64,000 nt of DNA from Pseudo-nitzschia pungens (lineage: Eukaryota > Bacillariophyta > Bacillariophyceae > Bacillariales > Bacillariaceae), in contig CM074758.1 of assembly GCA_037355855.1 (NCBI GenBank), positions 7,599,001 through 7,663,000 of the forward strand. Reading direction: 5' to 3'. Each line of letters opens with the position of its first letter. Within the stretch, counting starts at the first letter, position 1. The notes beneath the pieces were generated by a model, which had not been told where the DNA came from, searched no databases, and was given only the letters and a program-made list of their open reading frames with translations. Of the stretch, positions 13,131-64,000 are shown piece by piece. The position numbers and the translations under genes are program-made.

Positions 13131-13141
13131 CTTCTGGTACA

Positions 13142-17478: not shown

Positions 17479-17494
17479 CTCTCCAAGCTAAGCT
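17479..17494 (+). repeat. Left target-site duplication of element C
   Basis: The sequence ctctccaagctaagct lies here and again at 19430-19445. It is part of the ORF2 codons for FSLQAKL and was duplicated when C inserted. Confidence 0.9.
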
Positions 17495-33974: not shown

Positions 33975-34067
33975 GGTGGGGCTAGGATCGTCTGAATAGG
34001 CGTGTTGGCTCGGGCGCTGGTAGGCTGTCAGTGTTAACCTGTATGGATATATACAGATGGGTGTATT

Positions 34068-34900
34068 CTACACTGCTCTGGGATGTGCAAGTGCCAGGTG
34101 ATGACAAAGGCCGGGGCAGGAGAAGCACCGGTTGAGGACAAAGGCCGGGGCAGGAGAAGCACCGGTTGAGAGCAGAGCAACAACTGAAAAGCAAGCAGTT
34201 GGGTGTTGGATCAACAGCAGACACGCCTCTTGGATGTGCAAGTGCCAGGTGACAACAAAGGCCAGGGCAGGAGAAGCACCGGTTGAAGGCAAAGGCCGGG
34301 GCAGAAGAAGCACCGGTTGATGACAAAGGCCGGGGCAGAAGAAGCACCGGTTGAAGACAAAGGCCGGGGCAGGAGAAGCACCGGTTGATGACAAAGGCCG
34401 GGGCAGGAGAAGCACCAGTTGAGAGCAAAGCAACAACTGAAAAGCAAGCAATTGGGTGCTGGACCAACAGCAGACACGCCTCTTGGATGTGCAAGTGCCA
34501 GGTGATGACAAAGGCCAGGGCAGGAGAAGCGCCGGTTGAAGGCAAAGGCCGGGGCAGAAGAAGCACCGGTTGAAGACAAAGGCCGGGGCAGGAGAAGCAC
34601 CGGGTTAGGGCAAAGGCCGGGATAGGAGAAGCACCAGTTGAGAGCAAAGCAACAACTGAAAAGCAAGCAATTGGGTGCTGGACCAACAGCAGACACGCCT
34701 CTTGGATGTGCAAGTGCGAGGTGATGACAAAGGCCGGTGCAGGAGAAGCACCGGTTGAAGGCAAAGGCCGGGGCAGAAGAAGCACCGGTTGAAGACAAAA
34801 GTCGGAGCAGGAGAAGCACCGGTTGAGGGCAGAGCAACAGCTGAAAAGTAACCTGTTAGATGCTGGGGCTACAGAAGACACGCCGCTGATGATGACAAAT
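34068..34900 (-). repeat. 5' UTR tandem repeat of copy E
   Basis: Iterated CCGGTGCTTCTCCTGCCCC and the CACCTGGCACTTGCACATCC core, as in copy A but with about four cores (near 34090, 34244, 34497 and 34713) against ten in A. It lies directly upstream of ORF1. Copy-number difference between otherwise similar elements shows that the array expands and contracts. Confidence 0.85.
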
Positions 34901-35169
34901 GCCGGGGCGGTAGAAGCACCAGTGGAGTGCAGAAATGCCAGGTGATAGGGTATATGCTGGGAAACAGGGTACAGCAGCAACAACAGGTCCAACGTTGGTC
35001 TGGACAAGGAAAAACTCCAGGGGAACCAAAAGAAAGGACTGGAGCACTACCAGAAGAGTCACGTTCGAAACCCACAGAGGTGCTCTGGAGTTACAGAATT
35101 TAGAAACTCCAGTAGACCACTGCAAATCGTGTAGAAACAGACTGTAGAAACCGACAACTGGCTTGTATC

Positions 35170-36665: not shown

Positions 36666-36940
36666 CTCCTGAAGTTCCCCCTGTAGTTCCTGACCCTCCC
36701 CATGATGCCATGGCTGGTGACCTCCCTGTGGCCTCTCCTGAGTCCTCACCTGCAGTTCCTGCTGCCGGTGGTGGGGAAGATGCAGCCTCTGCATTGAGGC
36801 TTGGAGTTGCTGCAATTGCATTCTCTTCCAGTCATGATGCTAGTGTCAGTGATTTGAGCCATGCCAATGTCTCTACCAAATCAGCTCCGGCAACTCTTCC
36901 TTCCGTGCGACAGACTCGGTTTCCTTCTGATCATGGTTAG
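36666..36940 (+). pseudogene. ORF1 fragment of copy B, right part
   Basis: Continues the ORF1 reading of 24668-24863 after removal of copy E and one target duplication. It runs through MAGDLPVASPESS to the ORF1 C-terminus TRFPSDHG and the stop at 36938-36940. Its last 80 nt overlap ORF2, as in A and E. Confidence 0.9.
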
Positions 36941-39900: not shown

Positions 39901-42778
39901 TTGCTGACATGCCTGGTGACTTCTCTGTTGCTGACAAGAATGGCAATCGAGCTACCCTGGATCGGTTTGAAGTAGACCATGCTGACAAGACCCTTGGGGT
40001 TTTTATCTCCATGGATGGCAATGAGGAAGCACAGATTGCTCACATGAAGTCACAGTCTCAGTCTTTTGGCTCTCAACTCAGGGCTTCCAAGTGTGAGAAG
40101 CGCGCATCCCTCTACACCTTCAAGTATTCTTTCATGAAGTCTGTTGAATACCCCATGCCTGTCACGCAACTTGATGAGGCCACTTGGACTAAGATAATTC
40201 ACCCAGCTCTTGTTCCTGTGCTGAATAAAGCAGGGATGTCACGGACATTTCCCAGACATGTGTTCTATGGTCCTTCCCTCTATCAAGGCTTTGGATTCAT
40301 CCATCCATACCTCCTCCAAGAGTTCAGTCATATTGCCACCCTCTTTCAGGAATCTGTCAGGTCCTCACAAACTGGTAGGATTCTCAGGCTCACTGCTGAG
40401 TCTCTCAGGCTTGAACTTGGACTTCCTCTCCATCTTGGTGTCACACCCTATCATCCCTTTGCTTCATACGTCACTCCCTGCTGGTACAAACATGTGTGGA
40501 AGTTTTTCTCTGTTCACCCTGTGAGCTTGTTTGAAGACTTCCCAGACCTACCACTGTTACGTTCCAATGACTGTTATCTCATGCAAGCCTTTGTCAACTC
40601 TGGCTTCAGAGGTGCTGACTTGTCCCTCTTGAATCACATGCGCATGTCCCTCAAGGCTATTTCCCTTGCTGACATTTGTACTCCAGATGGGAAAAGACTC
40701 TCTCCCATGGCCTTCCAGCTGACATCCTCCAATCACTTGAGGGATCATCTTGACTGGCCTAGATGTCCTCCATCCTGGCCTCCAGCAGCACAGCGCTTAT
40801 GGACTAAGGCTCTTCAGACCTGTTTTCTTCCCCCCTGTCCACCCCCTGCAGCCAGGGCACTGGCTCCTTCTTTTCATCTTGGGCATTGGCTCTCTCCCCA
40901 GACAGCTTCTCTTTGGCCTTGGTTTTTGTCTCCATCCACCAACAGAATATTCTTCAAAACTTCTACTGGCTGGATTGTGAGCACCTCCCAGGGCAGGGGC
41001 AGATACAGGGTCACTTCTGAACTCATTCCTGACAAACCAGCCTGTGCTGATGTACTTGTCTGCCCTGTTATTTGTGGACAAGTTGTACGCGTTGTTGGGT
41101 CCTCAGCCTTTGTTTCCGAACCTCCTGACATGGATCCTCTGGAGTACAATCCATATGACTCTCTTCCAGACTCCCCTGCAGATGCCTTTGATTCACTCTG
41201 TGCGTCTCCAAGGGTACTTCTCCACAAATATTCCCTACCACAGGCTGGCTGTCAGCACCTTGTTGATGCTATCCAGAGTGGTACTGCCAGTGCTGTATGT
41301 GATGGTTCATTTGATCCGGACCTTCTCAGAGGAACTTCTGCTTTCATTTTGTCACCCAATACCTCCACCAAGACTGCTTCATTGTTCCTCACTGGCTGTA
41401 ATTTTGTCAGTGGATCCCCTGAGGATCAATCTTCCTACAGGAGTGAACTGGCAGGAATCATTGGGGTTCTCACCTGCTGCACTGCTCTGGTGAGTCTTTT
41501 TGATATTGCTTCTGGCTCTATCACTATTGCTCTGGATGGTGACACAGCTCTCAAACAGGCTGAGGGATCATGGCCATTGGTTATTTCCCAGAAGTCTTTT
41601 GATTATGTTTATGTCATCAGAAACATGATTTCTGCCCTGCCAATCTCTGTGCACTTTCAGTGGGTTCAGGGCCATCAAGCTGGAATCTTTCTTGATTGGT
41701 GGGCCCTTCGCAATCATCAGGTTGACAGCATGGCAAAGGCATTTCTCTCTGTCCATAGAGCTTCTGCCCATCACTATCCCAGACTTGTGTTTGAGCCCTG
41801 GGCTTTTTCTCTCAATGGAAGCAAGTGCTCAAGGTTTGATCAAAATGCTTTGCATGTTGCCATTTCTGGTCCTCCTCTTCTTCAATATTGGCAGACCCAC
41901 CATGACATTCCCATTCCACAACCTGTTTTGAGTTCCATCCATTGGTGTGCTCATCTGAATGCCTTCAAGCGTTTACCTCCTGGCATGCAAAGGTGGTTTG
42001 TCAAATTTGCTTCTGGCAGTATTGGTGTTGGCAACCAACTACTTCACTACCAGTATCAGGATCACTCCAGGTGCCCATTGTGTGATGCAGACAACGAGAA
42101 GGTTTCTCATGTGCTCTCCTGCAAGGACCCTGGGGCAGTACAGCACAGTGTGTCAGCTTTCAAGGGACCACTGCAGAAGAGGCTTGAAGTTGAACAAACT
42201 GATCCATCATTGGTTGTTGCCATTGTGGATCTTCTCACCAGAGTTCGGAAGGGCCAGAGAATTTATCCATCATCCTTACTCACTTGCAATTGCCTCTGCT
42301 GTCAGAGCACAGAGGACTATTGGCTTGGCACAACTGGCTTCTTGGTAGGTGGTCTCCTCGCTGGTATCAAATCCAGGCTGACTACTACTCCCACATTGGA
42401 AGCAAGCGCTCTCCCAAACGGTGGGCTACAGCTATCATCCATCAGTTCTTTCTTACCTCCTGGGATCTTTGGACCTATAGGAATGAACGACTCCATGGTC
42501 CTGGGGGTACCCTTGATGCTGAACAACACCAATCTCTTGATGCTTCCATCATCCTCTAGAATTGGCCGATTGGTGCAGCTGGTGCACTTCCCCAGTCACA
42601 CTCCCTGTTACAAACCCCTTTCCAAGTCCTACAAGGTTACACCCTGACTGCCAAGCGGCAGTGGCTTGCAACCATCCACCTTGCAAGGAAGCAGTATGCA
42701 GCGCCTGACCCACCAGTGCAGCCATACCAACAAGAGGCTGCTCTTCTCAGAGCCTGGCTTACTGGACCTCAGGGTTGA
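36861..42778 (+). pseudogene. LINE ORF2, copy B, with C-terminal frameshifts
   Basis: Intact from 36861 (MPMSLPNQ) through endonuclease, RT (FVDDTDLF), RNase H and the CPLCDADNEKVSHVLSC finger. It then carries an extra T near 42275 and another near 42325 relative to copies A and E. A cluster of changes at 42548-42570 adds a TAG in the original frame. The unshifted frame ends at 42647, while the ancestral stop after WLTGPQG is at 42776-42778. The catalytic domains could still be made; only the last roughly 150 residues are garbled. Confidence 0.88.
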
Positions 42779-44054: not shown

Positions 44055-47000
44055 ATGACATCTTCGCCGCGCTCGGATTTAGAGCAAATGGAGGAGGCAG
44101 CCTTATCGAACCGCTTGAAGACGGTGGGTGACTACAAGCATGGATCCATCAAACGAATCAAGCTTTCGCGATTTTTGACTTACAATGAAGCGGAGTTCCG
44201 TCCCGGACCTCGGTACGTTACAGTAAATTTAATTGTGACACTCCAAATGGCTTCGATTTAGTCCGAACAGTTTCTTTTTCGTTTCCGTCGCTTTCGAATT
44301 TCACACGAAAACCTTGAAATTGCTTTCAACATTCATTGCTTCCGCCATGACTAATATGTCTTTTGATTGTTTGTACAGACTCAACATGGTAATAGGGCCG
44401 AATGGATCAGGAAAATCATCTATCCTTTGTGCGATTTGCTTGGGACTGGGAGGAGGTCCTGCTTTGCTAGGAAGAGCCGACAAGGTGGCGTCATTCATTC
44501 AGAACGGAGAAGCCGAGGCCAGAATCGAATTGGAAGTTGCAAACGAAAATGGAGAAGATGTTGTCATCACCCGTACCATTGCCGAAACCGACAAGAAATC
44601 ATCATCATTTACGTGGAATGGCGAGGTAATATCGGAGAAGAAAGTTCAAGAGAGAGTTTCGAGCGAATTTCAGATCCAACTCGACAACCTTTGCACGTTT
44701 TTGCCCCAAGAGAAGGTCGGAAATTTCAGTGGTATCGACAGTAAGCAGCTGCTTTTTGAAACGGAAAAGACCCTCAGCGACGATAAAGATTTGTATCACA
44801 CACACAAGAGACTTATCACGATGGAAAAAGAGCACAAACAATCCGATCGTTTGGAAGGAACTTTGCGAAGTGATGTGAAGAGTCTTTCAGATGAAGAGAA
44901 AAGGCAGAAGGCGACAGTAGATCGTATGGAAGAACGAAAGATTGCTCAGGAACAAGCCGAGCTCCTGCGAAAAAAGATTCTGTGGCTTCAGTTGGACTCT
45001 ATCCGCGAACGTTGTTTGGAATTGAAGAATGAGAAAGAGCAAGCAAAACAAGAGGTAGTAGAACTCGAAAACGCTCTGACACCACTCTTGGAAGCCAAAA
45101 AGGTTTCAAGGCAGAGGTTGCTGCAAGCGGAAAATGAAGTAAATGCCTTTGAGCAGGAGATCAAGATGCACGAAAAGAACATGGAGAAGCAAAAGCATAA
45201 ATATAATAGACACGACGACCAGATCGAAGAGACACTCGCAGAATTGGCAACTATTGATAACACTCGTGTAAAGTACGAAAGCGATGCACAGGCTTTACGA
45301 GGAAAAGTTGAAACGCTTCAGGGTTTGTTGGACCAGCAGACGCCAATGGAAGAACTTGAAGCAACATTTGCTGCAGCGCGGCGAGACCAAGAAAGCATTC
45401 AACCGAAATATCAGGAGACAAAGAAGAACCTACAACAATTTCAACGCGAAATGGCTTCGGTGCACGACGAATTCTCATTAGCGCAGAAAAAGCTGGAAAG
45501 GCTTCAGAACGAAAAGGAACAACGCCGTATGCATGTACTAAGACAATTCAACGACGTGAAGAAAGCCTACGAATGGATTCAAGATAACCGGAACCTTTTT
45601 CGAAAAGAAGTTGTCGGTCCCATCGCTTGCGAAATTTCACCGAAGTCAAATAATAGTGCAGCGTATCTGGAGCAACACGTTCCCAATTCATTGTTGAAAT
45701 CATTTGTCGTGCAAGATAAGTCTGACTATGATTTGCTTTACGGCAAAGTGCGGCGCGATCAGAATATTCCAATCAACATTATCATGGTAGATCGTTTTTC
45801 CCAACAAGCCTCCCGCATTTTTTCCGAACAGAAAATGACGATGCTCAAACAAGACCATGGTGTGGTAGGCTACTTGGACGAATCCTTTGAGGGACCAGAC
45901 ATTGTGGTTGAAGCACTGAAATCGAACTGTGCGATTCACAAAGTGTTGGTGGGAGGTGATCGCACTCAGGATAGTATCGACGACAGAGGCTTAGGTCAAA
46001 TCCTTTCTGAGTCTGAAACTGATAGGAACAGGCTTCAATCATATTGTATTTTTGCCAGCAAAGGAGGAAAGTCATTCAAGTACACATCCCAAGTCTCCAG
46101 GTATTCAGGGAAACCCTCACTGCGGTAAGCACTCGTCTCGATGCGTGGATTACTCTGTTTTGGTCAATAGCTTCAATGTTTTTATTTTCCTCCAAAATGC
46201 TCAACCATTTACGCTTGCTCTATAATTTGTGATATTATAGAGTGGATGATATCAAACCTTCACGGATCCTGAGTAGTGGGGCAAGCGACGACGCAAAGCA
46301 GAAAGTGATCCAACAATTGCAGGAAATAGAAATTCTCAAAAATGAGATTCAGCCAAAAATTGACGAGACTGCTCGTGAAGAAAACGAACTTTTAGTTCAA
46401 GTTCAAAACGCACAGCAGCGCTGCAAGGATGCGAAGAAAAAGATTCAGATGATTCGAAAGTCGATTCAAAAACTAGAAAATACCAAGCGCAAGCTAAGAC
46501 AAGCCGAGGAAAAACTAAAGACCGATGATGAAGAGGAAAAGAAACAATTAGTTGAAAAGTTGAAACAGTCTCTCGCCTATTCATTGAAAGCCATGAATGC
46601 TCACTCGGAATGCAACAAAAAGATGGTGGAATTGACAGTCAAAGCATCCGGTGTCAAAGTTGATAAGGAATTTGCGGTGGTTCAAGCAAGAGTCAGCGAG
46701 TAAGTAAGAAATTCAAAATCTTGAAGCATTAAATTCAGGAACACCCCTCAATTTTACCACTTTCTTTCCCTTTGCTCTTAGAGAACAAGCAGAAGAGGCA
46801 GAAGCTAGAATGCACGAAGTCAGACAGAGATTTCGCGTTCTGAAGCATCAGTTTGCGCATGAAAGGAATAGATTCAAGGAGATGACATTACATGCAGCAC
46901 GCGAAGCTCCTCTCGAGGACGAAAATGGTATAAAAACAGAGTTGCACGAGAAGTTGACAGTCCAACTTGCCCAATTTGATACAATTGATCTTGCTCAGAC

Positions 47001-47856
47001 AGCACTTGCCGAAGCGGAAGCTACAGTGAATGGTATTCAAGAGGATCGTGGTGCACTGGAAAGATATCAGAAAGTTGTGCGAGACCTGGAACAGGCGAAA
47101 CAAAATCTTGATGATTTATTGCACCGAAAAGACAAGGGTCGTTCCGAGCTGGAACAAATGAAAGCACCGTGGCTTGCAACGCTTCAAGAAACCATTTCAA
47201 CAGTTGACAAGCGTTTCACGGAGTACATGAGAGATCTTGGTTGTGTTGGGAGCGTTTCCCTCAAAGACGGAGATAAAGAAGAAAACTTTACCTTCGAGGA
47301 TTACGCCGTCGAGATCAAGGTCAGCTTTCGTGATGGCGTCAAACCATCGGTGCTTTCCAGTCGTGTTCAATCTGGGGGTGAACGGTCGGTATCTACAATC
47401 ATGTACTTGATGGCCATGCAAGACATGATGGTTGCGCCATTTAGGTGTGTTGACGAGATTAATCAAGGTTTGGACGACCGCAATGAACGATTGGTTTTTA
47501 GAAGAATAGTGGAAAATTCTACACAGCCTCCTGGTCCGAACGGACCAACAGATCACTGTGGTCAGTATTGGTTGATCACACCAAAACTGCTACCGAATTT
47601 GGACGACATGGAAGTCGCCGCAATGAACGTAGTCTGCATTTTCAATGGTACGTTTCAGAAAAGAAATACCCCCTTTACTGATTCTTCGTCTAACGATATC
47701 CTATTGTTCTTTCGACCAGGTCCATTCAACCTGGAAAATCCTACAGACTGGTGTGCCAAAGAGCTAATCGGTATTGCCAACAGAAAACGCCGCCGCAATA
47801 GAATAGATGCCGAGGATGAAGGCGAAAGCAACAAGGCATCAAGAACTGGGGAGTAA
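44055..47856 (+). CDS. SMC5: SMC5, structural maintenance of chromosomes protein 5
   Basis: Five exons: 44055-44212, 44379-46124, 46241-46699, 46782-47647 and 47720-47856, giving 1121 aa. The start is the ATG of MTSSPRSD; the frame is open slightly upstream but from a GTG. KHGSIKRIKLSRFLTYNEAEF and the Walker A GPNGSGKS (59-66) form the N-terminal ATPase half. Long coiled coils follow on either side of a hinge encoded near 45590-46100. The C-terminal half has the ABC signature SGGERS (985-990) and Walker B VDEINQGLD (Asp1012, Glu1013). The DEINQG form and short length are typical of SMC5 and not of SMC1-4. It pairs with SMC6 in the nuclear SMC5/6 complex for recombination repair and restriction of foreign DNA. 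All junctions preserve frame. Confidence 0.93.
44213..44378 (+). other. SMC5 intron 1 (166 bp)
   Basis: Donor CTCG|GTACGT and acceptor TTGTACAG|ACTC. Splicing rebuilds an Arg codon and gives PGPRLNMVIGPNG, the expected start of Walker A. Confidence 0.9.
46125..46240 (+). other. SMC5 intron 2 (116 bp)
   Basis: Donor CTGCG|GTAAGC and acceptor TATTATAG|AGTG. It joins GKPSLR to VDDIKPSR without changing the coiled-coil frame; unspliced, a stop follows at 46126. Confidence 0.85.
46700..46781 (+). other. SMC5 intron 3 (82 bp)
   Basis: Donor AGCGA|GTAAGTAAG and acceptor GCTCTTAG|AGAAC. It joins ARVSE to EQAEEAEARM within the coiled coil. Confidence 0.85.
47648..47719 (+). other. SMC5 intron 4 (72 bp, stop-free and in frame)
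   Basis: Donor CAATG|GTACGT and acceptor TCGACCAG|GTCC. It is 24 codons long without a stop, so it could be mistaken for coding sequence. Splicing gives VVCIFNGPFNLENP, which fits the SMC5 C-terminal pattern (hydrophobic-xNGP); the retained 24 residues do not. Confidence 0.8.
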
Positions 47857-49770: not shown

Positions 49771-51696
49771 ATGGATTCTGCTGCTGCCACCAGTCGCGAG
49801 ACTGACAATGAGCACAATACCGATAGGGGCGATCATATGTTAGGAGAAAAAGGACAGCGGGGCAAAATCTATAAGGTAGACTGCGCGATAATTGGTGCCG
49901 GAGCAGCAGGACTGCAGTGCGCTGCGACTCTGTTGGACGCGGAGAAAGAGATCTCGTTAGTTGTCCTTGAGGCAAGGAATCGAGTAGGCGGCAGAATATT
50001 GACCAAGGATGAAAAAACGATAAGCATCTGTTCCGACGGGAGTCCTCGAGAAGAGGTTTCGTTCCACAGAGACCATGGTGCTGCCTGGGTTCACGGATCG
50101 CACAATAGCAATCCGATGATGCAACTTCTCGCTGAAAACGAGCTCGAATCCGAGTCCGAGTCCGATGGCCCATCTGACACGGAGGGAACGGCACCAACGC
50201 CAAGCCAGGAGCTACTACCGACGCTCTATCCCGTGTTCATGGGAAACCCGTGGATAAGACCCCACACAGTTCTGCATCGCAATGGCAAGAGAGGACGGGA
50301 GAGAAGTGTTATATCCTACTTTGTGGACGGGACAATCGTTCCCGACTTTCTGGAAGGCGATGATGAGATCGACCAAGAGGGTTGCAATATTTCGACAGGT
50401 ACCGAAGCGCCACAAGTGACATCATCGAGGACGTCTCGATCTAACTTCATATCACGTGCTATACGGCGTCATTATCAAGTCCTCAGGACGATCATCTCAG
50501 AATACGACAACGATGAGTGCGGTGATTGCGAGAACGTCGACCAATTGTATAAGCAACTTCACAGCACACTCGTGAACGATTTGCACAACGCGACGGAAAG
50601 AAAAGAAGAGGATGAACAACTCATCAGTATGTTGACACCATTCTATCTTTATTTGATGGAAAATTGGAATGGGATATCCATGAAGGATACAGAAGTGGAG
50701 CAGATCGTCGAGCTGCTCGTTCCGGATGAAGAAGACCGGGATGGCGACAGAGAAAAGATTGCAACGGATGAATGTGCCGAGGTAATCGTAGAGGAAAAGA
50801 AGGATGATCAGATTGCCATACCCGAGACGGACGAAGAATACATAAGTGCAGGTGATTTCAGGGGTTATCATTGCAAGGTGAAGACTGGAATGTTTTCAGT
50901 ACTAAAACCACTGATGAGAAGAATCGAGCATCACCAGCAGCAGACAGAAAACGAAATTATATGTCTCGGAGAAAAAGTGATATCGATTGCCGACGAAACG
51001 AATCACGTACGAATCGAAACTGCGTCGGGGAAGGTAATCGTTGCAAATTATTGCGTCAACACGATGCCGTTGGGATGCTTGCAACATTCAATATTGGACA
51101 AGAATTTTTTCCAACCAAGGCTTCGCGATGAGAAAATAGAGGCCATCAATTCGATTTGGTCGGGCTCGTACAAAAAGGTATTTCTTACGTTTGATCACAT
51201 CTTTTGGCCGGAAGAAACACCAATGATTGGCCTCATACGAAGCAAACCAGAGCAACCATCAAGTTCTACATTTCCGGGGCGATACCTTGTTTTTTACAAC
51301 TTATGGGCACGAGACAACATTCCGAGCATCGAGGCAATCTTGTGCGGAAATTTGGGAAAGTGGGCCTTTCAAAAAAGTGACGACGCCATCCGAAAGGCGG
51401 TCGTCGATTTCATCGGGGCTTCTATGGGACTCCGCAATCTTGCTGCTTCGTGCGTAGGATGCCATGTTACCAGGTGGGAAGAAGATGAGTTCACGAGAGG
51501 TTCGTACTCGACATACCACCTGGGGACCCTCGACCATCACGTGGACGAGCTCAGATCAGCGGAATGGGAGGGTCGTTTGGTCTTTGCAGGAGAGGCCACC
51601 GAGAGCGATCACATGGGGAGCGTTCATGCTGCCTTGATGAGCGGAGAGCGGGCAGCGAGAGAGGTCGCAATCTCCTGCAACGCTACGTGTACCTAA
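49771..51696 (+). CDS. FAD-dependent amine oxidase, polyamine-oxidase/LSD1-like
   Basis: 641 aa, single exon, first ATG. The N-terminal dinucleotide-binding site is CAIIGAGAAGLQCAA (Gly42-Gly47), then VVLEARNRVGGRI, the classic flavin amine oxidase start. Near the C-terminus are the KVFLTFDHIFW motif, the WEEDEFTRGSYSTYHLG segment and GRLVFAGEATESDHMGSVHA, which bind FAD and line the substrate site. The middle holds an acidic region (about residues 190-360) longer than in typical polyamine oxidases, rich in Glu/Asp. No SWIRM domain, signal peptide or C-terminal peroxisomal SKL is visible. It most likely oxidises polyamines, releasing H2O2; a histone demethylase role is less likely without SWIRM. 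The upstream region carries the two hairpin repeats. Confidence 0.85.
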   Translation: MDSAAATSRETDNEHNTDRGDHMLGEKGQRGKIYKVDCAIIGAGAAGLQCAATLLDAEKEISLVVLEARNRVGGRILTKDEKTISICSDGSPREEVSFHRDHGAAWVHGSHNSNPMMQLLAENELESESESDGPSDTEGTAPTPSQELLPTLYPVFMGNPWIRPHTVLHRNGKRGRERSVISYFVDGTIVPDFLEGDDEIDQEGCNISTGTEAPQVTSSRTSRSNFISRAIRRHYQVLRTIISEYDNDECGDCENVDQLYKQLHSTLVNDLHNATERKEEDEQLISMLTPFYLYLMENWNGISMKDTEVEQIVELLVPDEEDRDGDREKIATDECAEVIVEEKKDDQIAIPETDEEYISAGDFRGYHCKVKTGMFSVLKPLMRRIEHHQQQTENEIICLGEKVISIADETNHVRIETASGKVIVANYCVNTMPLGCLQHSILDKNFFQPRLRDEKIEAINSIWSGSYKKVFLTFDHIFWPEETPMIGLIRSKPEQPSSSTFPGRYLVFYNLWARDNIPSIEAILCGNLGKWAFQKSDDAIRKAVVDFIGASMGLRNLAASCVGCHVTRWEEDEFTRGSYSTYHLGTLDHHVDELRSAEWEGRLVFAGEATESDHMGSVHAALMSGERAAREVAISCNATCT

Positions 51697-52282
51697 TTTT
51701 GAAAGATCTTTTCGGACCATCCACTGCGTACTTCCTAATCAATAAGGCAACCATCATTGCATCATTCATCTCAAACGCTGGACTTTGGATTAGGAACCGA
51801 TCATTGTTATTTTTAGCTTTATTGAGTTTTTGACCCTAAATTAGTCTTTAGAAGAATCACAAACCGCACAGAGCATCACAGAATTCGAGACTTGATGTCG
51901 TAAATTTCTGTACGGTAATTTATCGTAAGTTACTGTATTCACTCTAAATTCACACGAGGACCCACAAACAAACAAACGACGTCCCGCGTCAATCGAAACC
52001 GGCCACCATCGGAGAGCAAGTTATCGCCCACTAGGAAGGCAGCGACACGTGTGAGAAGTCGGTAACAGTCCCGTGTTGAACAACCACAACAACAACATCA
52101 TCATCAACAACAACAACAACAGAGAGAAACGCGCGAGAATCGTTTCCCATAAAGTTGCCAGGTTCGAGTTGATTGTCAGCTCGTAGAAGCAATCGACATC
52201 CGTGCGCAACATCATCTGTGAGGATACCGACAGGAGGAGGCTCGTGCGCACAGCAGAGAACAATCGGCTTCTTTCATCAAAG
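51697..52282. other. Intergenic region upstream of TFB4
   Basis: Contains the amine oxidase 3' end and the TFB4 5' UTR. CAA-rich microsatellite sequence (about 52079-52121) precedes the start. No gene recognised. Confidence 0.5.
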
Positions 52283-53389
52283 ATGAAGCGCGGAGGGGAA
52301 CGATCGTTGACCGTCCTGGTGGTAGACGTCTCACCGGTCACTTGGGGGAAACGAGAAATGTTGCGAAACGCCCAGGACAAGGCACGTTTCGCAAAGGGCA
52401 AGGAAAGCGTGGGTCCCGCGACCCTGAACGACCTCTTGTCGGCGGTCCAAGCCTTCTCGTCGGCGTATTCGAGTCTGGAACGGGACTCGGCACTTATACT
52501 GGTGGGGGTGGCGGGAAGCGAAGTCGCGGTCGTTCATCCCCGCAAAGACGACATGGAAGAATACTTTGCCAATCAAGAATCGAAACTGGACAGCAGGAAG
52601 ATCCAGAGTGATCTCATGGAGGGTGTGGCGGAGTTGGTGGCGAGAGCGGTCGCGAAACAATCCGCGAGCATGAACGGAAACTCCGAGAGCCAGCCACCAC
52701 CTCTGGCAGCCTCCCTCGCTGCCATGGCATCGGGGTTTTCGATTTCTCTCTGCCTGATCAACCGATTCTTGGTCGCTACAAATTCCGGGATTTCCGCCCT
52801 GCGAGATCACGACTCGTGGAGCAGGCGCAACGGGAACGACGAAGGTGTCATCACCGCGTTGAGTGGAACGGGTGGCGGCAGCAACAGCGGGAAAAACAAC
52901 AAGGGAAGAGCCTGGTCACCCCGCATCCTGCTGATCCAGGCGTCGGACGATCGCCCATCGGATTACAACGCCTTTATGAATTGTGTGTTTGCATCGGTGA
53001 AGCAAAGCGTCGTGGTCGATGGTTGCTTCATCGTGGAGTCGAATCACGGGACCCAAACGAGCCCTTACCTGGAACAAACCTGTGATTTGACCGGAGGCCT
53101 CCTCTCGAAGCCCAAGGGACCTTCCCAATCCAACAAGGCACTGACGGAGATCTTGCTCAGTGTCTTTTTGCCACCACGCTCGAGTCGTCCCCGGCTCAAT
53201 CTGCCGGGCATTGACGAGGTCGACTTTCGACCGCGCTCCTTTGATACGAGGGCCATGTTGGACATTGCGTTTGTTTGCAATCAATGCTTGAGCATATTCG
53301 AGAAGAAACCGGAGGGAAGGTGCCCCACTTGCGACGCAGAGATTCGGTTACCGGCGTTGTCGAAAAACAAGAAAAAGCGAGTGGGATAG
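52283..53389 (+). CDS. TFB4: TFIIH core subunit p34 / TFB4 (GTF2H3)
   Basis: 368 aa from the ATG of MKRGGERSL; the open frame begins at a GTG at 52202, but the upstream residues do not look like the family. LTVLVVDVSPVTWG is the first strand of the von Willebrand A-like fold of p34. The C-terminus has EVDFRPRSFDTRAM and FVCNQCLSIFEKKPEGRCPTC, the family's C4 zinc-binding module. p34 binds p44 (SSL1) in the TFIIH core, needed for RNA polymerase II initiation and nucleotide excision repair. A Ser/Gly/Asn-rich insert (GTGGGSNSGKNNKG) sits in the A domain. The gene converges with the tocopherol-cyclase-like gene, 135 bp away. Confidence 0.92.
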   Translation: MKRGGERSLTVLVVDVSPVTWGKREMLRNAQDKARFAKGKESVGPATLNDLLSAVQAFSSAYSSLERDSALILVGVAGSEVAVVHPRKDDMEEYFANQESKLDSRKIQSDLMEGVAELVARAVAKQSASMNGNSESQPPPLAASLAAMASGFSISLCLINRFLVATNSGISALRDHDSWSRRNGNDEGVITALSGTGGGSNSGKNNKGRAWSPRILLIQASDDRPSDYNAFMNCVFASVKQSVVVDGCFIVESNHGTQTSPYLEQTCDLTGGLLSKPKGPSQSNKALTEILLSVFLPPRSSRPRLNLPGIDEVDFRPRSFDTRAMLDIAFVCNQCLSIFEKKPEGRCPTCDAEIRLPALSKNKKKRVG

Positions 53390-53511: not shown

Positions 53512-53531
53512 CCTGTGATTGTGATCACAGG
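53512..53531. terminator. Small hairpin between convergent genes
   Basis: Arms CCTGTGAT and ATCACAGG around a TGTG loop, between the TFB4 stop and the end of the next gene, overlapping that gene's stop codon. It could influence 3' end formation of either transcript. It may also be chance; the evidence is the palindrome only. Confidence 0.3.
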
Positions 53532-55330
53532 CACGTAAATTGGTTCGCAGTCGGTTTCCCGCACAGGTTCTCCATCAAGTACCGAACGTTTTGGTGCACC
53601 TCCAATCCGGCGTGATCCCCGACGTCGTCGAGCAGCAGCCGCACGTGTTCCTCTCCGCCGTTGTCGCCCCCACCCGATACATATTCGTAGAGACGCACGC
53701 GGACGTTTGCATTCAGGGCCTCGTTCACAAAGGGTTCCATCCTGCTTGTCGCTGTTCTGCTTGCAGCAGCAGCAGCAGCAGCAGCAGGCGATGCGTTTGC
53801 AGCAACGCTCTCGACGACTGTCGTTTTCGGAGCATAGAGCATGACGTGCGGAACCCTGCGATCCGCAATCAGTTCGAGTCGGTATCGCAGTTTCCTAGAA
53901 TCGTAATTCAAAAACCACGATCCGATCCACGCCCTAGCAAATCGTCCGAGACGAATAATGACCGAGTCGATCTCGTTGCTGTTGTTGCTGTTGTCGTCGT
54001 CTTCGACACAATCGCTCTCATTCGGACAAGAACGAGAGGTTGTCGATGATTCTACTAGCGGCGACCTCAATGCGTTCCATAGTCCGCCACCAATGCCACC
54101 CGAATTCAACACCGCAACGACGCGTTCGTCGTCGACAACGAGGTCTTCGAAATAGGCGCCCGTCCAGGTCGCAAAGGGAATCAAACGTTTGGAACCGCGA
54201 CTCCGGACGTCCCCGTCCGCTTCGGAATCGACACCGGTTCCATCGCCATTGTCGTTCGAGTCATTGATCCATGCGGCGGCCGTGAATCCGGGGAACTCCG
54301 GTGCGGCCCACGAGCCGGGCAAGACCTTCCCGAGGAATGTGTTGGCGGTGAGTATCGGTATTCGAGCGACGGAAAAGAACAGGGACGTTCCGCTGTTTTG
54401 CGGTTGCTTGCGAAAGGAATTGGTCTGCATCCATATCCACAGCGAAGGGAAGGACCGGCCGCGGTCTTTCTCGACGTATCCCCGTGACGAAAGGCACGTC
54501 GTTTTGTTGTCGTCGTCGTCGTTACCGGCGACCGCAGCAGCACAGCAATCCGTATCAAAGAATTCTTCCACCTTGCTGTCGCCATTGCCATTGTTATCCG
54601 TTCGATCGGAAATGGTAAGACTTCCTTCGAGCTTGTGATCAAAGCTCAGCACGTCGTGGTAGCATTCCAAAAACGGCGAGAGGAAATATCCCACCGGTCC
54701 CATGGCACCAAGGTTCCGAACGGAAGGAATCGGCCACGGCGACAGCTCTTTGTAGCGCACGGCACCCTCCAGGGCGATGGATGCATCGTCACCAAACCGT
54801 GGGAACAGATCCAGGGAAATTCCGTGCTTGGAAAACCGGTTCGTTCCGATCTCGACGTAGTACTGTTCGTTGCTGCTGCCGCCGTCATTTTCGTTTACGT
54901 TTTCGTTGCCCCAGAGTTTTCGGTATCGGAATTCGGTTTCGAGGTCGAAACGGTAATAGTGTTGTTTCTCGCCATTGATGGTGACAAAGATGAAAGCGTG
55001 CGATTCGTTCTTGCCGCTGTTGCCACCGTCGTAAAACACTCCCGGAACGACCGCCATCGAAAGGTTGTCGATGTCGATGTCAATGTCGATGTTTGTGCCT
55101 CTCGCATCATTGTGGCTCACCCCAGCGTTGCCGCAATCGATTCTGGTTCGCACTAGTTTGTGATACCACCCTTCGAAGAAATGGTGCGTCTTGCCCTCTC
55201 CGTGGTACAATTCTGGGTGGAAGGCCAGCGTCGTCGCCAGCGGCTCGTTGCTCGACGAGATTGCTGCCCACAGAACGGACACGCCTATCCCAAAGAGAGC
55301 CACCCAGACTGTAGAAACACTGCTGGTCAT
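53525..55330 (-). CDS. Tocopherol-cyclase-like protein
   Basis: 601 aa, first ATG. Hydrophobic N-terminus MTSSVSTVWVALFGIGVSVLWAA suggests a signal peptide or membrane anchor. HHFFEGWYHKLV is the family hallmark (FFEGWY) of tocopherol cyclase/VTE1-type lipocalin-like proteins. Further matches are the SPWP motif, GAMGPVGYFLSPFLECYHDVLSFDH and the paired motif FPSLWIWMQTNSF. Several Asp/Asn/Gly-rich insertions (for example about residues 80-100, 260-290 and 355-375) and a poly-Ala run from CAG repeats make it longer than plant VTE1. It could close the chromanol ring of tocopherols. No clear plastid motif is seen, however, so a related enzyme or lipid-binding role is equally possible. It shares an 831-bp divergent promoter region with the prolyl hydroxylase gene. 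Confidence 0.7.
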   Translation of the reverse strand: MTSSVSTVWVALFGIGVSVLWAAISSSNEPLATTLAFHPELYHGEGKTHHFFEGWYHKLVRTRIDCGNAGVSHNDARGTNIDIDIDIDNLSMAVVPGVFYDGGNSGKNESHAFIFVTINGEKQHYYRFDLETEFRYRKLWGNENVNENDGGSSNEQYYVEIGTNRFSKHGISLDLFPRFGDDASIALEGAVRYKELSPWPIPSVRNLGAMGPVGYFLSPFLECYHDVLSFDHKLEGSLTISDRTDNNGNGDSKVEEFFDTDCCAAAVAGNDDDDNKTTCLSSRGYVEKDRGRSFPSLWIWMQTNSFRKQPQNSGTSLFFSVARIPILTANTFLGKVLPGSWAAPEFPGFTAAAWINDSNDNGDGTGVDSEADGDVRSRGSKRLIPFATWTGAYFEDLVVDDERVVAVLNSGGIGGGLWNALRSPLVESSTTSRSCPNESDCVEDDDNSNNSNEIDSVIIRLGRFARAWIGSWFLNYDSRKLRYRLELIADRRVPHVMLYAPKTTVVESVAANASPAAAAAAAASRTATSRMEPFVNEALNANVRVRLYEYVSGGGDNGGEEHVRLLLDDVGDHAGLEVHQNVRYLMENLCGKPTANQFTCL

Positions 55331-56161
55331 CGTATTGTTCCCTCACCGAGCAAGAAACGATGGTGTTGCAATGGTGTACTAATACAAGTACGAATACTCG
55401 TAACCTTACTCCAAATTATTTTCATGGTCAACCCTCCACACTCAAAACGATAGAGCAGAGGCAAGGCAATTCAGGGATGACACTGCTTTGTCACAAAATC
55501 ACGGAAAATAATGAGACTTTCGGATAAAAAAATTGGATTGTTATCGTACCTTACATTTGAACACTCTCACATGACTGAAAATGTTATGTGATTGAATCAA
55601 ACTTCATTTTGGAGAGTCACTGTTCGTATCGATGGTCATTACGGAATTTCCAACGCAAATGAGCATTTTGAGAAAAAATATTACTTCGTACTTTCGGTAA
55701 TTTACCGGTACATTGCTGTACTGACTTCAACGTGACCTGCTCACTGTTACTCGACTTTCATCTCGTTGCGTCCGATTGATTTTGAATCAAACACCAACGC
55801 TCACTTTACGACACAGACTTGTGTGTGACTCCAACGACAAAAAAAGACCCTCACGTTGAATTCCATACGGTAGATAGCTGTTACAGCGTTAGAATACCAA
55901 AAGCTCTTTTCGGTTTCGAATTGTCATTTTGACAACGAGCTTTTGTTGTGACTGTCCAAACCGAACGGTTCTAGGTCGTAACTTACTTTCCGTCTCTCAA
56001 CGAAATTGAATAGAACCCGAATACCGCAGCAAAAATCTTCGAAGGAATCAAAGCGAAGAACGAAGAACCAAGCACCAAGCATCCTCTTCAAGATCCAGTG
56101 GCTATCCACCGCTCACAATCTCCAAATACAATCCGCATTGCGAAAGAATCACGAAACAACA
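55331..56161. other. Divergent promoter region between tocopherol-cyclase-like and prolyl hydroxylase genes
   Basis: No gene. One TACCGGTA palindrome (55703). The reading frame of the prolyl hydroxylase is open from about 56006 but lacks an ATG until 56162. Confidence 0.5.
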
Positions 56162-57796
56162 ATGATAGCCTCCAAGTGTCTGTCGACGCATTTTCTGCTG
56201 GCCCTCGCCACCCTGTGTGCCGCATCGCTGATGCAACTCCACGATGGAGTGCAGCTCGTTCGGGCCGACGAACCAACCTGCACCTGGAGTTTCTGTGGCG
56301 AAACCGAGCAAGATCCCGCGCTGAAAGAATTCACGTACGACGTTGGTGACGGCCCACAAACCGCACTGGCGTACGTCGAACCCGAACTCAATAGTTTTTA
56401 TCGGAACGGTGACGGCGACGATGGCAGCAGTTCCAAGAAGAACTACAGCAGAGTCAAACCGGCCTTTAATGGTCTGGCCGGTAAATTCATCAACATGTCG
56501 AACAAACAACTAGAGTTTTACTGGGAGTCCTACAAGGGCGGAGAAGCACACCTGATGAGGCATTACACTCCATTCTCCTCGGGTGGAACAGGAACATTTC
56601 CCACGCATCGATTCTTCCTCTCCAAACCCGGAAAGAAACACAAACGTCTCAAGGAGTGGGTCATCCAAGACTATCCGCACAACTTGTATGTCTACGATCC
56701 ATACTATGTGGAGGGCGACCCCGAGAAGACCGAAGAAAACCTTCGAAAACATCTCAACGCGGAGGAGCGGGCGCAATACGACAAGTGGAAGAAGACAATC
56801 CTGTACGACGAACAATACAAAAAATTCACTGGTCGATCCTACCTTGCCAATTACGGAGAAAACGGACCCCGAGCCCCTCCTATGCATTACATGTGGCGGG
56901 CTGACTATTTTGGACAAGAACACTGGGTTACTACCAGAGAGACCCATTTTGAAAGTCTGCCGCCAATGGATGAATTGGAACCCATCTCGGTGAAAGCTAG
57001 TGAACGAGTCTTGAAGGAATCCGACCCAAGACCATTCCAGGAATACCGCGCGAAAGACGAAGTGACCCAGGAACCCCTCGAATACATGAACATGACTCTG
57101 ACAGCATTGTCCTGCGCTCCCCGTGTTTTTGAAATCAAGAATTTCTTGTCGAAAAGCGAAGTGGATCACATTCTCAATCTAGCGGCAGGCATTTCCCTCT
57201 ATGAATCCACTACGGGTGACGTTGGAAGCAATGGGGACGGCGGCAAAAAGGTCGAGGAGCGGACCGAGCGAAAGACCAAAGTTAGAACCAGCAAAAACTC
57301 CTGGGTCGCTCGAGAAAAATCCCCTATCTTGGATACCATTTACCGCCGAGCTGCCGATTTGACCCGAATCGACGAGTCTCTGTTGCGCCGTCGCAGCAAA
57401 CAGGAGTATCCCGAACTCAAAACGAGGGAATCCCTCGCGGAAACACTCCAGTTGGTTCATTACGATCCCACCCAAGAATACACAGCCCACCACGATTTTG
57501 GGTATTCCCACATTGACGACGACCAACAAGGCGCCCGCTTTGCAACCGTTTTGTTCTATCTGAACGACGAAGACTTGGTGGGTGGCGAGACGGCGTTTCC
57601 CCGGTGGGTCAACGGCAAGTCGTTCCACGAATTGAAGGTCAAGCCGGAGGTGGGGAAGGCAGTCTTGTTTTACTCCCAGTTGCCCGATGGCAACATGGAT
57701 GACTTTTCGCAGCATGCGGCAAAACCCGTCATTCGCGGAGAGAAATGGCTGATCAATTTGTGGATTTGGGATCCCGAATACGATCGCAACAATTAA
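56162..57796 (+). CDS. Secreted/ER prolyl 4-hydroxylase, 2OG-Fe(II) dioxygenase
   Basis: 544 aa from the first ATG, followed by a signal peptide (MIASKCLSTHFLLALATLCAAS). The N-terminal part, residues about 40-330, is aromatic-rich (KQLEFYWESY, HNLYVYDPYYVEG) and unlike animal P4H alpha subunits; I do not recognise it. The catalytic domain starts near PRVFEIKNFLS. Iron ligands are His443 and Asp445 in TAHHDFGYSH and His518 in SQHAAKPVIRGEKW; Lys528 should bind 2-oxoglutarate. FATVLFYLNDEDLVGGETAFP is typical of P4H. It probably hydroxylates proline in secreted or cell-wall proteins. No KDEL-type signal is seen at the C-terminus (PEYDRNN). Confidence 0.88.
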   Translation: MIASKCLSTHFLLALATLCAASLMQLHDGVQLVRADEPTCTWSFCGETEQDPALKEFTYDVGDGPQTALAYVEPELNSFYRNGDGDDGSSSKKNYSRVKPAFNGLAGKFINMSNKQLEFYWESYKGGEAHLMRHYTPFSSGGTGTFPTHRFFLSKPGKKHKRLKEWVIQDYPHNLYVYDPYYVEGDPEKTEENLRKHLNAEERAQYDKWKKTILYDEQYKKFTGRSYLANYGENGPRAPPMHYMWRADYFGQEHWVTTRETHFESLPPMDELEPISVKASERVLKESDPRPFQEYRAKDEVTQEPLEYMNMTLTALSCAPRVFEIKNFLSKSEVDHILNLAAGISLYESTTGDVGSNGDGGKKVEERTERKTKVRTSKNSWVAREKSPILDTIYRRAADLTRIDESLLRRRSKQEYPELKTRESLAETLQLVHYDPTQEYTAHHDFGYSHIDDDQQGARFATVLFYLNDEDLVGGETAFPRWVNGKSFHELKVKPEVGKAVLFYSQLPDGNMDDFSQHAAKPVIRGEKWLINLWIWDPEYDRNN

Positions 57797-60329: not shown

Positions 60330-63300
60330 ATGAACCCGGATGACAGGTCCCCGAAAGAAGGCGCAAAGGAGAAGAATAACTATGTCGATGAGAAAATGAA
60401 TGACCACGACGACCCGAAACCACGGGCTGGACTCGACCGATCGCGGTTGCGAAAAGTTCTCGACAATCTGACGGAGGTAGAGACGTCGCTGCAATCGGTT
60501 TTGGAAACCCATCGCCACGGAGAATATGGATTCCTCACCCGGGAATGGGGCTTCACTGCTCCGGGCGGGCTGGGTGGACAGCTGAAGGGCAAATACTACC
60601 CGTGGGAACTCAAACTGAAGCGCTGCAAAACCTTCTTTTGGCCCATAGAATGCTACGAGGCCATGGAGGTAGGACCCGATTTCGGACGCCCCTACCCCGA
60701 CATGGTGAAGGACCTTCCTCCCGAAGCAGAACAACTCTACGGCAATACACCCTTGCATATGTACTTGAAAGAAGCTCCCCGCCCGGACGTCGAATTAGTC
60801 GAAGAAGACTACCGCGACTATCGCGATGCGGCACGCATTTTTATATTGCTGGGAACGCTGAGCCACCTGTATGGAAGTAGTGCACCGGATGGTCCCAAGA
60901 CCGCGGAACTGCCAAACTGGATCGAATACCCTCTCATCGAAGTGGCACGGCGGCTTCAGATCGAACCGTCACTATCCGCCCATTTTTTGCAGCAAGAAAA
61001 TTGGATTTGGAAGAGCGATGCAGAAGACGCCGTCCCCAGCGATGCTCTTGGTCTCTCAAGTGTTGAATTCCGAACAAGGCCGTCGATGGACCCGTCCAAG
61101 CGTCAATCCAGCAGAATCTCGTCGAAAAGAATGGAACACCTCATCGTTGCGACATTGCTCCGAGAATGTGAATGCAAGGATCGAATCCATCGCATCACGT
61201 CGTATCCAGAATGTTTTGTAGGGAGTCAATGCGTCGATGTTGTGATAGACAACTCCTTTACGAACAATAGAGAAGACGCCGTTCGATTGTTGCGAAGGAT
61301 CAACCGATCATACAATCTGTTCTCGCACGTCAGCAACGATAATTATGAGCTTATGGATCACGATTGTTTTTACAAATTTCAAGACGAATGGCAGACCAGG
61401 AGATTCATGGCAATAAGTGGTCAATTGGAAGATTCGAACATCGATGGTGAGGGGCTGGAATACGTTCACGATGGCGATGACGGCAACGGCAACGGGAACA
61501 AACTGACCCCTTCGGTGAATAAGAATAACCGCAGCGATAACAATCGAAAGTCGGTGGGTCTGACTAGAAATGAATTCTGGAAAAACGCTATGAATTCCAA
61601 CGCAATAAGTACAAGGTCAGTGGCGCGACTGTCGAGGACTTACAACAATGCTCGGATTGTCCCTCGCAAGCACGCATCCATGAATGAAACAGTTTCCATA
61701 ATCCACATGATGGCTAAGGTTAAAGTGAAAGACCGTCGCCATCGATTACGGATGTATAAACAGTGCTTTGTTGGCAAACAACTGATTGATGTACTTATGG
61801 AACACGAGGCGGCCGATACCCGTAATGATTGCTTGAACCTAGCTCTAGCAATCAATCAACGCATGAAACTCTTCGAACACGTGAAGCATCATCACTTACT
61901 AAAGGATAGGCATTTATTCTATCGATTCACCGATTCATTTCGGACCTTAATCGAAGAGCAGGCGCATGCATCTACAATGGTTGATGCCGGTGGAATAGGA
62001 CCTATTGACTTCAATGGGCGCAGGGTTTCCATCAGCGAAAAAACAAGAGTGAGCTACATAGATAGTTCGGCTTTTGATTCCGCAGCTGAATTTGTCGACG
62101 AAAATCTTCAACTGTCGCAGTCCGATTTTGCGGATCCGTACGATGCCCTTTTGGGCGTAGAAGAAGAAACGGAGTTTGCCCTCGATAATATTACTATGTT
62201 GTATCCCGCTTTTGGGAACAATCACGAACGAATTAACCAGCTCGTTCCTGCTTGCATGGGGTTTGCGCTCTCATCCCTACCATTCGATGTATTGGATATT
62301 CTTTCCGTTATGAGGAATATTTTGGAGGCCAAATTGAGTTCCCCGCATGATGGAGACAATTACGAAATGAACCGATTGTACGACTTGATCTACAAGGTGG
62401 CATTTAGTGTATCCAAATGTAAGGAAGAGTTTCAGCAAATGTCAACGGATCCAAAAAAAAGGACATGTAATTCAAAATATGTTTCCATCAAGCAAAGTCA
62501 GCCACTTTCAAATGGTGTCCTTGTTCGGAGCACCAAGGACGGCAAACCTGAACCACGAAAGGGTACAACCGGTACGCAATTCCCATACTTTCATCTCCTC
62601 GATTGGCTGCTAGGTCGACATCAATTCAAAAACGACGGCCAAGGAACCGATGTTGGCCTTGTTGCGGCAGTGGGATCTATTGATGACACCTTTCCACGCC
62701 CGCAGAGAGAGTACATTCGCTGTCTCACCAAACTTGACGAATTTTCATCACTTCGCGGATTTCTAGAGGTCATCACACCGTCGACAGAGTTACTCACATC
62801 ATACAACCACTTGATCGAATGCTATGCTGGCGAAGGAGGTGTGCTGCAAGCTCACTGTCGTAAGCTTTATTCGTACATCCACAACAATGTACAATCTTCA
62901 ACCAGCGGCACCAATCACCTTGCATCTTCCGAAGAGCAATATCCCGACAGCTCTGAAAGCACCGAAAACAGCAACTCTGGATGCCCCATGTCCATGGGAC
63001 AACCCAAAAGCCCAAAAAGGAGCAGCTCCGGATGCCCTATGTCGATGGATCACACCGAAAGCGGGAAAATTAAAACCTCTGGGAGTCCAATGTCCGTGTC
63101 CTCGGAAAAGCAAAGCCGCGAGAGTGCTCACTCTAGAAAGCTGAAACTGTCTTCGAATGATTCATCGAATGCTATCGACAATCATCACTTTGCCCTCACG
63201 ATGTTCAAACACATGCGAATGGCAGCTGAAGATCGATGGAAACTTCGTCTACCTCCGCTCATGAACGAAGTAACGAAGATAATTTACTCAACAAGTGAAT

Positions 63301-64000
63301 CAGGAGGTTTCACGACGGTGGCTTTGGATTTGTCCGGGACCGGGCTCTTGTACGAGTACGGTGATGTTGTGAAAGTCATTCTTCCGAACGATGACAGGCA
63401 GACACGTTCGTGGCTGTACTCGCTAAAATCAATGAATCAGGAATATTTCAAGTTGAAAGATATGATCAACTTGCAGAAAAATACAGGTAATGGATGGGGC
63501 TGGGATGGGTTGTGGGAGGCACTGGGATGGAATCGTTTCGAACAAAATGGCGGCAATGGCGTTCCCATTGAAATGATTGCTCGATACATTGAACAAGCCA
63601 GCATCAGAGATGAGTTTTCCAATAAACTGCAGTGGGTTCACTCTCCCCTTGATCTATCTGTGAAAGGGCCATCTCAGATGTTTGCTCTTCCTCCTTCAAT
63701 TCCAACAGAAAGGATAAGATCCCTCGAACCTGTGTCCCCCCGAATCTATTCGGTTTCTGGGGTCGAGTTGGACCGAGTCTTTCTACTTGTTTCAAAACCT
63801 GACGATCATGCGCGCCATCACGGATATTCTTCAATGAGCGACCCAAATATCACAAAAGTTCATTGCTCTTTCTCTCCTGCCACATTTTTCTTGTTGCCAC
63901 CAAAAGGTGTCAATTTAGTTTGTGTTGCCTCTGGAACAGGAATATCCCCTTTTGTTGGCTTGGTGGATGCAATAAGGTCACGTTCAGGGTCTTACACAAT
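60330..64000 (+). CDS. Indoleamine 2,3-dioxygenase - DEP - DEP - FAD/NADPH reductase fusion, partial at the right edge
   Basis: One uninterrupted frame from ATG 60330 to the window end: 1223 codons and no stop. Residues about 50-235 match the small domain of IDO: EYGFLTREWGF, RIFILLGTLSHLYG and LPNWIEYPLIEVARRL, ending near NWIWK. Two DEP domains follow (about 270-350 with CFVGSQCVDVV and DHDCFYKF; about 456-534 with CFVGKQLIDVL and DRHLFYRF). The IDO large domain resumes at about 611-852: LYPAFGNNHE, the GTTGTQ loop (745-750), PRPQREYIRCL and AHCRKLYSYI, with His842 as the expected proximal haem ligand. A Ser-rich linker (about 858-960) follows. The reductase has GDVVKVILP, the FAD motif PRIYSVSG (1137-1144) and the NADPH motif GTGISPF (1202-1208), as in CPR, sulfite reductase and NOS. 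No flavodoxin/FMN domain is seen. Inference: a cytosolic dioxygenase that reduces its own haem. The C-terminal end is missing. Confidence 0.85.
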   Translation, partial: MNPDDRSPKEGAKEKNNYVDEKMNDHDDPKPRAGLDRSRLRKVLDNLTEVETSLQSVLETHRHGEYGFLTREWGFTAPGGLGGQLKGKYYPWELKLKRCKTFFWPIECYEAMEVGPDFGRPYPDMVKDLPPEAEQLYGNTPLHMYLKEAPRPDVELVEEDYRDYRDAARIFILLGTLSHLYGSSAPDGPKTAELPNWIEYPLIEVARRLQIEPSLSAHFLQQENWIWKSDAEDAVPSDALGLSSVEFRTRPSMDPSKRQSSRISSKRMEHLIVATLLRECECKDRIHRITSYPECFVGSQCVDVVIDNSFTNNREDAVRLLRRINRSYNLFSHVSNDNYELMDHDCFYKFQDEWQTRRFMAISGQLEDSNIDGEGLEYVHDGDDGNGNGNKLTPSVNKNNRSDNNRKSVGLTRNEFWKNAMNSNAISTRSVARLSRTYNNARIVPRKHASMNETVSIIHMMAKVKVKDRRHRLRMYKQCFVGKQLIDVLMEHEAADTRNDCLNLALAINQRMKLFEHVKHHHLLKDRHLFYRFTDSFRTLIEEQAHASTMVDAGGIGPIDFNGRRVSISEKTRVSYIDSSAFDSAAEFVDENLQLSQSDFADPYDALLGVEEETEFALDNITMLYPAFGNNHERINQLVPACMGFALSSLPFDVLDILSVMRNILEAKLSSPHDGDNYEMNRLYDLIYKVAFSVSKCKEEFQQMSTDPKKRTCNSKYVSIKQSQPLSNGVLVRSTKDGKPEPRKGTTGTQFPYFHLLDWLLGRHQFKNDGQGTDVGLVAAVGSIDDTFPRPQREYIRCLTKLDEFSSLRGFLEVITPSTELLTSYNHLIECYAGEGGVLQAHCRKLYSYIHNNVQSSTSGTNHLASSEEQYPDSSESTENSNSGCPMSMGQPKSPKRSSSGCPMSMDHTESGKIKTSGSPMSVSSEKQSRESAHSRKLKLSSNDSSNAIDNHHFALTMFKHMRMAAEDRWKLRLPPLMNEVTKIIYSTSESGGFTTVALDLSGTGLLYEYGDVVKVILPNDDRQTRSWLYSLKSMNQEYFKLKDMINLQKNTGNGWGWDGLWEALGWNRFEQNGGNGVPIEMIARYIEQASIRDEFSNKLQWVHSPLDLSVKGPSQMFALPPSIPTERIRSLEPVSPRIYSVSGVELDRVFLLVSKPDDHARHHGYSSMSDPNITKVHCSFSPATFFLLPPKGVNLVCVASGTGISPFVGLVDAIRSRSGSYT

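Follow-up and report, generated by a model that had tools for sequence, protein, structure and literature searches.

A predicted diatom protein that joins an indoleamine 2,3-dioxygenase-type haem domain to a flavin reductase

Can a haem enzyme of the indoleamine 2,3-dioxygenase (IDO) type carry its own electron supply within the same polypeptide? This question is raised by a long reading frame at the end of a 64,000-nucleotide stretch of the Pseudo-nitzschia pungens genome (GCA_037355855.1, contig CM074758.1, positions 7,599,001 to 7,663,000), which is referred to here as the window. An earlier note on this DNA had described one frame holding an IDO-type dioxygenase and a flavin adenine dinucleotide (FAD)/NADPH reductase. 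We confirmed this observation and found partial support for its interpretation: as judged from sequence, the gene encodes a single long diatom protein that combines a tryptophan-dioxygenase-type haem enzyme with a flavin reductase and, in the relatives, with a cytochrome b5-like carrier. The earlier note had not described the pair of DEP domains that splits the IDO domain, the truncation of the NAD(P) domain by the window end, or the continuation of the relatives into the b5-like domain.

Reading frame and fused family

After an in-frame TGA at 60240, the plus-strand frame stays open for the rest of the window; its first in-frame ATG is at 60330, and the 1223 codons that follow contain no stop and leave the window still open. 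The nearest relative, P0001 (1539 amino acids, 93% identity to the window protein), starts at the same Met, and judged by its length about four fifths of a gene of this kind lie inside the window. Of the NAD(P) domain about 20 residues are covered before the window ends, and the relatives extend about 300 residues beyond this cut point, into the b5-like stretch. The motifs named in the earlier note all lie in frame: GTTGTQ starts at residue 745, AHCRKLYSYI at residue 841 (its His being residue 842, as the note had numbered it), PRIYSVSG at residue 1137 and GTGISPF at residue 1202.

A first protein search gave 37 relatives at E <= 1e-3, and every one with a named organism comes from a diatom or a diatom bin (Pseudo-nitzschia, Seminavis, Nitzschia, Cylindrotheca and Bacillariaceae). 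Relatives with both ends are 1325-1786 amino acids long. A second search yielded DEP-free compact proteins, seven of 1032-1149 amino acids and one of 869 amino acids; a third, seeded with distant members, added P0044 and P0045 only. Three of the 45 relatives found (P0035-P0037) carry DEP but no IDO in their Pfam annotation and were excluded from later counts, and the remaining 42 were compared together with the window protein and L001 (44 rows). The DEP-free forms occur in metagenomes, L001 in a bin labelled uncultured Gammaproteobacteria on a contig just 3357 bases long; P0039 is complete and almost identical to L001, and P0040 shares 30-40% identity with 32 diatom-type rows. In an unrooted tree of 33 rows, a branch with support 100/100 parts 24 diatom-type from 9 DEP-free rows (P0042 and P0043 form long branches, and eight rows differ in make-up). 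Narrow pattern scans confirmed 0 of 25 stretches on viral contigs and, with the window protein, 0 of 4 in prokaryote genomes, absences that mean little in scans of this breadth; with two compact proteins, 1 of 51 stretches in prokaryote genomes was confirmed. P0042 gave no match among plasmid records.

The gene is cut by the window end and several relatives are fragmentary, as might be expected if the fusion were an artefact of assembly or gene modelling. However, the IDO proximal His and the Gly of the NAD(P) motif stand together in one chain in 42 of the 44 rows, which come from several sources and species and include the bacterial-bin contig L001 and P0015, a transcriptome open reading frame that spans the IDO-reductase join. 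A gene-joining artefact was therefore rejected, and we consider it extremely improbable. Five checkpoints, from the N-terminal IDO part to the second b5 His, were all passed by 25/44 rows; the other rows lack one end or another, like the window. P0032 (Pseudo-nitzschia heimii) starts past the join and has no bearing on it. We concluded that the fused architecture is real. Public names of family members (DEP mTOR-interacting protein, mechanosensitive channel, hemerythrin) currently conceal it as a family. Among the literature matches listed (titles and abstract starts), none describes IDO or tryptophan 2,3-dioxygenase (TDO) fused to a reductase, in agreement with the earlier note, which named no described enzyme of this architecture.

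Domains and their candidate cofactor residues

Pfam IDO (PF01231) matched the window protein at 31.5 bits (cut-off 26) and exceeded its cut-off in 10 of 13 relatives scanned whole, P0012, P0014 and P0039 being marginally below. When the two halves were scored singly, both fell below the cut-off (N-terminal piece, 22.6 bits; C-terminal piece, no Pfam match), and it is the alignment with the compact relatives that identifies the C-terminal part, since their IDO match spans it. The proximal His column holds H in 43/43 rows with a residue there, of 44; we equate it with His346 of human IDO1 (hIDO1) by fold and by eye, as the hIDO1 alignment ends before that site. The predicted structure has the two-lobed IDO fold and aligns with IDO structures at 16-18% identity, which gives strong model-based support to an IDO fold for the haem domain. 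The VIA and Foldseek lists for the whole model were filled by IDO rows, and hence were uninformative on the reductase or b5.

These features might be those of a classical tryptophan dioxygenase making N-formylkynurenine, in which the fused chain merely rescues auto-oxidised haem. Besides the fold and the proximal His, Ser or Thr occupies the hIDO1 Ser263 position in all 42 rows with a residue there, of 44, and IDO1 has a ferric resting state and, as the earlier note had also said, requires a reductant (PMC13142367). Against such an enzyme, hIDO1 Phe163/Phe164/Ser167 are replaced in the compact forms by Tyr (11/11), His (11/11) and Pro (10/11), and in the diatom forms by Asn/Gln/Pro (29/29 rows with a residue, of 33). 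The tryptophan-holding Phe226/Arg231 could not be placed with confidence, since the alignment is uncertain there by several residues; basic positions close by are mostly conserved (Lys/Arg in 40/42 rows at P0040 position 308 and in 42/42 at position 313). By alignment, the tryptophan-pocket residues are thus changed or unplaceable. A classical tryptophan dioxygenase appears unlikely to us, and the more likely reaction would be an oxygenation whose substrate is something else than free tryptophan. Diatoms are reported to build NAD+ from aspartate (PMC4217691), so that a role in the kynurenine pathway does not suggest itself.

Pfam DEP gave 89.5 bits in two stretches of the window protein, both within the IDO domain, which resumes near 62163 by alignment; at this site two compact relatives in the alignment have only about ten residues. 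Of eight DEP-free proteins scanned, six (P0033, P0034, P0038, P0039, P0040 and P0042) carry a C-terminal STAS domain (anti-sigma-factor-antagonist type), and STAS was not matched in P0043 or in the incomplete P0041. P0043 has neither DEP nor STAS; P0044 is likewise by its Pfam annotation. The DEP pair in diatoms, or the C-terminal STAS in several bacterial-type forms, probably localises or regulates the protein.

The linker between IDO and reductase contains Gly-Cys-Pro motifs, up to nine, in 21/33 diatom-type rows. Anywhere in the chain, the motif occurs in 24/33 diatom-type rows vs 1/11 compact rows, and P0018 and P0024 have one inside the b5-like loop. We take the linker motifs to resemble haem-regulatory Cys-Pro motifs. 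Together with the two lineages bearing different signalling domains, they would suit a non-enzymatic protein that senses redox state or haem, in which a change in the oxidation state of the IDO or b5 haem would alter a DEP or STAS part that signals. A passive sensor would not need the reductase motifs, which are retained, and P0043 and P0044 lack both signalling domains; we regard this explanation as improbable.

Part of the profile search proposed in the earlier note bore out its assignment, namely IDO above the cut-off and DEP in two stretches, but FAD_binding_1, with a cut-off of 32.3, scored no more than 12.7 bits on the whole window protein and 17.1 bits on the piece. The reductase was instead recognised with a profile built from pieces of eight relatives, which matched methionine synthase reductase (MTRR, E 1.2e-7) and sulfite reductase flavoprotein (SiR, E 2.4e-7, profile positions 11-233), as well as neuronal nitric oxide synthase (nNOS, E 2.7e-4) and cytochrome P450 reductase (CPR, E 8.5e-4). 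The PRxYS residues are present in 44/44 rows and the first Gly of GTG in 43/43 rows with a residue. NAD_binding_1 is above its cut-off in P0042 (26.4 vs 22) and matches 7/8 reductase pieces at E <= 1. These motifs and profiles assign the reductase to the diflavin type, with an FAD/NAD(P)H module like that of CPR and SiR.

Flavohaemoglobin combines a His-ligated haem with an FAD/NAD reductase in one chain. This parts list is similar to that of the present family, which could be an IDO-fold counterpart that removes nitric oxide as a dioxygenase or detoxifies some other small molecule. The weak reductase matches obtained for P0033 also include the NCBIfam flavohaemoprotein model, although at a non-significant E of 0.25. 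The haem domain is however IDO rather than globin, and the reductase is nearer to MTRR, SiR and nitric oxide synthase (NOS), which makes a detoxifier of this type doubtful at best.

Pfam matched no flavin mononucleotide (FMN, flavodoxin-like) domain in the window protein or in 13 relatives scanned whole, as the earlier note had remarked for the former, and an FMN domain concealed elsewhere in the chain was rejected on the same grounds. The relatives' C-terminal stretch carries HPGG and two conserved histidines (38/38 and 37/37 rows with a residue, of 40; HPGG Pro 33/38). In another alignment the second His was found in 39/40, the exception, P0027, diverging from the family before b5. The predicted order of elements is strand, strand, helix, HPGG, helix, loop, helix, His, helix, and the predicted b5 fold is weak but consistent. 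The top matches of both the profile search and the predicted fold are b5, each being weak when taken singly. Pfam gave no b5 match in this stretch, and the profile alignments do not place the second His opposite the b5 ligand. This last point lowers our confidence in the domain, which we hold to be probably cytochrome b5-like, and in the electron path and the monooxygenase reading proposed below. The b5-like domain seems to stand in for the absent FMN domain. A helical stretch behind it is conserved (P0040 ~896-1000 and the equivalent diatom region), and no Pfam match is listed there.

Proposed electron path and reaction

The domain order and the conserved candidate cofactor residues, as they stand in the aligned sequences, suggest a self-sufficient His-ligated haem oxygenase in which electrons pass from NAD(P)H through FAD and b5 to the IDO haem within one polypeptide; we favour this proposal with moderate confidence. 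The CPR/SiR-type FAD module would take hydride from NAD(P)H, and the b5-like haem, in the place of the FMN domain, would accept single electrons from FAD and reduce the His-ligated haem of the IDO-fold oxygenase domain, which would then bind O2. This supply may hold the IDO haem ferrous and permit reductive turnovers. From the arrangement we infer that the cofactors are loaded, which way and by what route the electrons travel, and that the reaction is an oxygenation. The earlier note had proposed transfer from FAD to haem either directly or through a partner; the b5-like domain of the relatives would provide the relay, and its presence makes the direct route less likely. Human IDO1 is active in vitro when supplied with CPR, whether b5 is present or not, and b5 was suggested as the cellular reductant (PMC13142367, PMC4191572).

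Dioxygenation requires a starting electron only (PMC5350241), whereas for monooxygenation by IDO the iron has to be reduced again (PMC12921851). In the IDO superfamily, the monooxygenase MarE was run with ascorbate (PMC11904535). A monooxygenase is a better match for the built-in reductase than a classical dioxygenase would be, since a fused chain is better suited to repeated reduction. We therefore put forward, tentatively, a natural self-sufficient His-ligated haem monooxygenase under DEP or STAS control, an IDO-fold counterpart of P450 BM3, whose b5 domain would replace the FMN relay and feed in the electrons required for every monooxygenation by IDO.

Surroundings of the gene and relation to known systems

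The features of the gene and its ordinary neighbours are listed in Table 1. Elsewhere in the window we noted by eye three closely similar long retroelement copies at 16257-23775 (+), 25166-33974 (-) and 36861-42647 (+), the last with a reverse transcriptase match (RVT_1, 45.4 bits), and repetitive frames at 11147-13382 (+) and 33982-35007 (-). A tocopherol cyclase match at 53525-55330 (-) is barely over its cut-off (29.5 vs 26.6), and its best stretch covers only 31 residues.

Table 1. Positions of the predicted features in the window
Feature	Position	Strand	Basis or remark
Whole reading frame	60330..63998	+	1223 codons, open at window end; close relative P0001 has 1539 amino acids
IDO domain, N-terminal part	60549..61031	+	Pfam match at residues 74-234, 22.6 bits as piece
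DEP domain 1, within IDO domain	61173..61379	+	PF00610, 47.6 bits
DEP domain 2, within IDO domain	61719..61928	+	PF00610, 54.8 bits
IDO domain, C-terminal part (distal segments, substrate loop, proximal His)	62163..62940	+	Alignment to compact relatives; end approximate
GTTGTQ loop	62562..62579	+	Aligned via compact relatives with what we take to be hIDO1 G261-Q266
His842, predicted proximal haem ligand of IDO domain	62853..62855	+	Conserved His column
Linker with two Gly-Cys-Pro motifs (Cys885, Cys902)	62979..63038	+	Motif reading in frame
FAD-binding domain, CPR/SiR/NOS/MTRR type (PRIYSVSG 63738-63761)	63207..63900	+	Profile matches; bounds approximate
NAD(P)-binding domain start (GTGISPF), cut by window end	63933..63998	+	Motif; relatives' b5-like domain would lie beyond
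MatE transporter	4602-6152	-	Pfam
SMC-like ATPase in two frames	44314-47856	+	SMC_N under cut-off, AAA_23 above
Flavin amine oxidase	49771-51696 (+)		
Tfb4	52202-53389 (+)		
2OG-Fe(II) oxygenase	56006-57796 (+)		

Compared with IDO1 and IDO2 (PF01231; haem-dependent aromatic oxygenases), the family has the same IDO fold and proximal His, but its distal residues are changed and it carries the fused reductase and the b5-like domain, to which the diatom forms add the inserted DEP pair. With CPR, the SiR flavoprotein, MTRR and the NOS reductase it shares the FAD module, its PRxYS and GTG motifs and the Cys-Gly motif that follows these; unlike in the diflavin reductases, no FMN domain was found in the scanned chains, and the b5-like domain follows the NAD(P) domain instead. 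HPGG, the second conserved His and the predicted element order are like those of cytochrome b5 and its fusions (Ncb5or, flavocytochrome b2, sulfite oxidase), whereas the family's domain is shortened, with a longer loop between the histidines and no Pfam b5 match. P450 BM3, CYP116B and NOS are self-sufficient haem oxygenases that likewise hold oxygenase and reductase in one chain, but the present family would have a His-ligated IDO fold and would pair FAD with a b5-like domain in place of FMN. MarE belongs to the same superfamily, and IDO itself has monooxygenation as a side activity; both reactions depend on a reductant and were run with ascorbate, or with NADH in the case of IDO, and the word reductase is absent from either main text (PMC11904535, PMC12921851).

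The cellular reductant of IDO1 is still called unclear (PMC13142367). The natural weld of three parts, namely an IDO-fold domain, a CPR-like reductase and a b5-like domain, points to a CPR/b5 route for IDO, and the family offers a single-chain enzyme for probing that route. If reductive turnover proves true, these proteins would represent a self-powered branch of histidine-ligated oxygenases, which may be useful as a biocatalyst.
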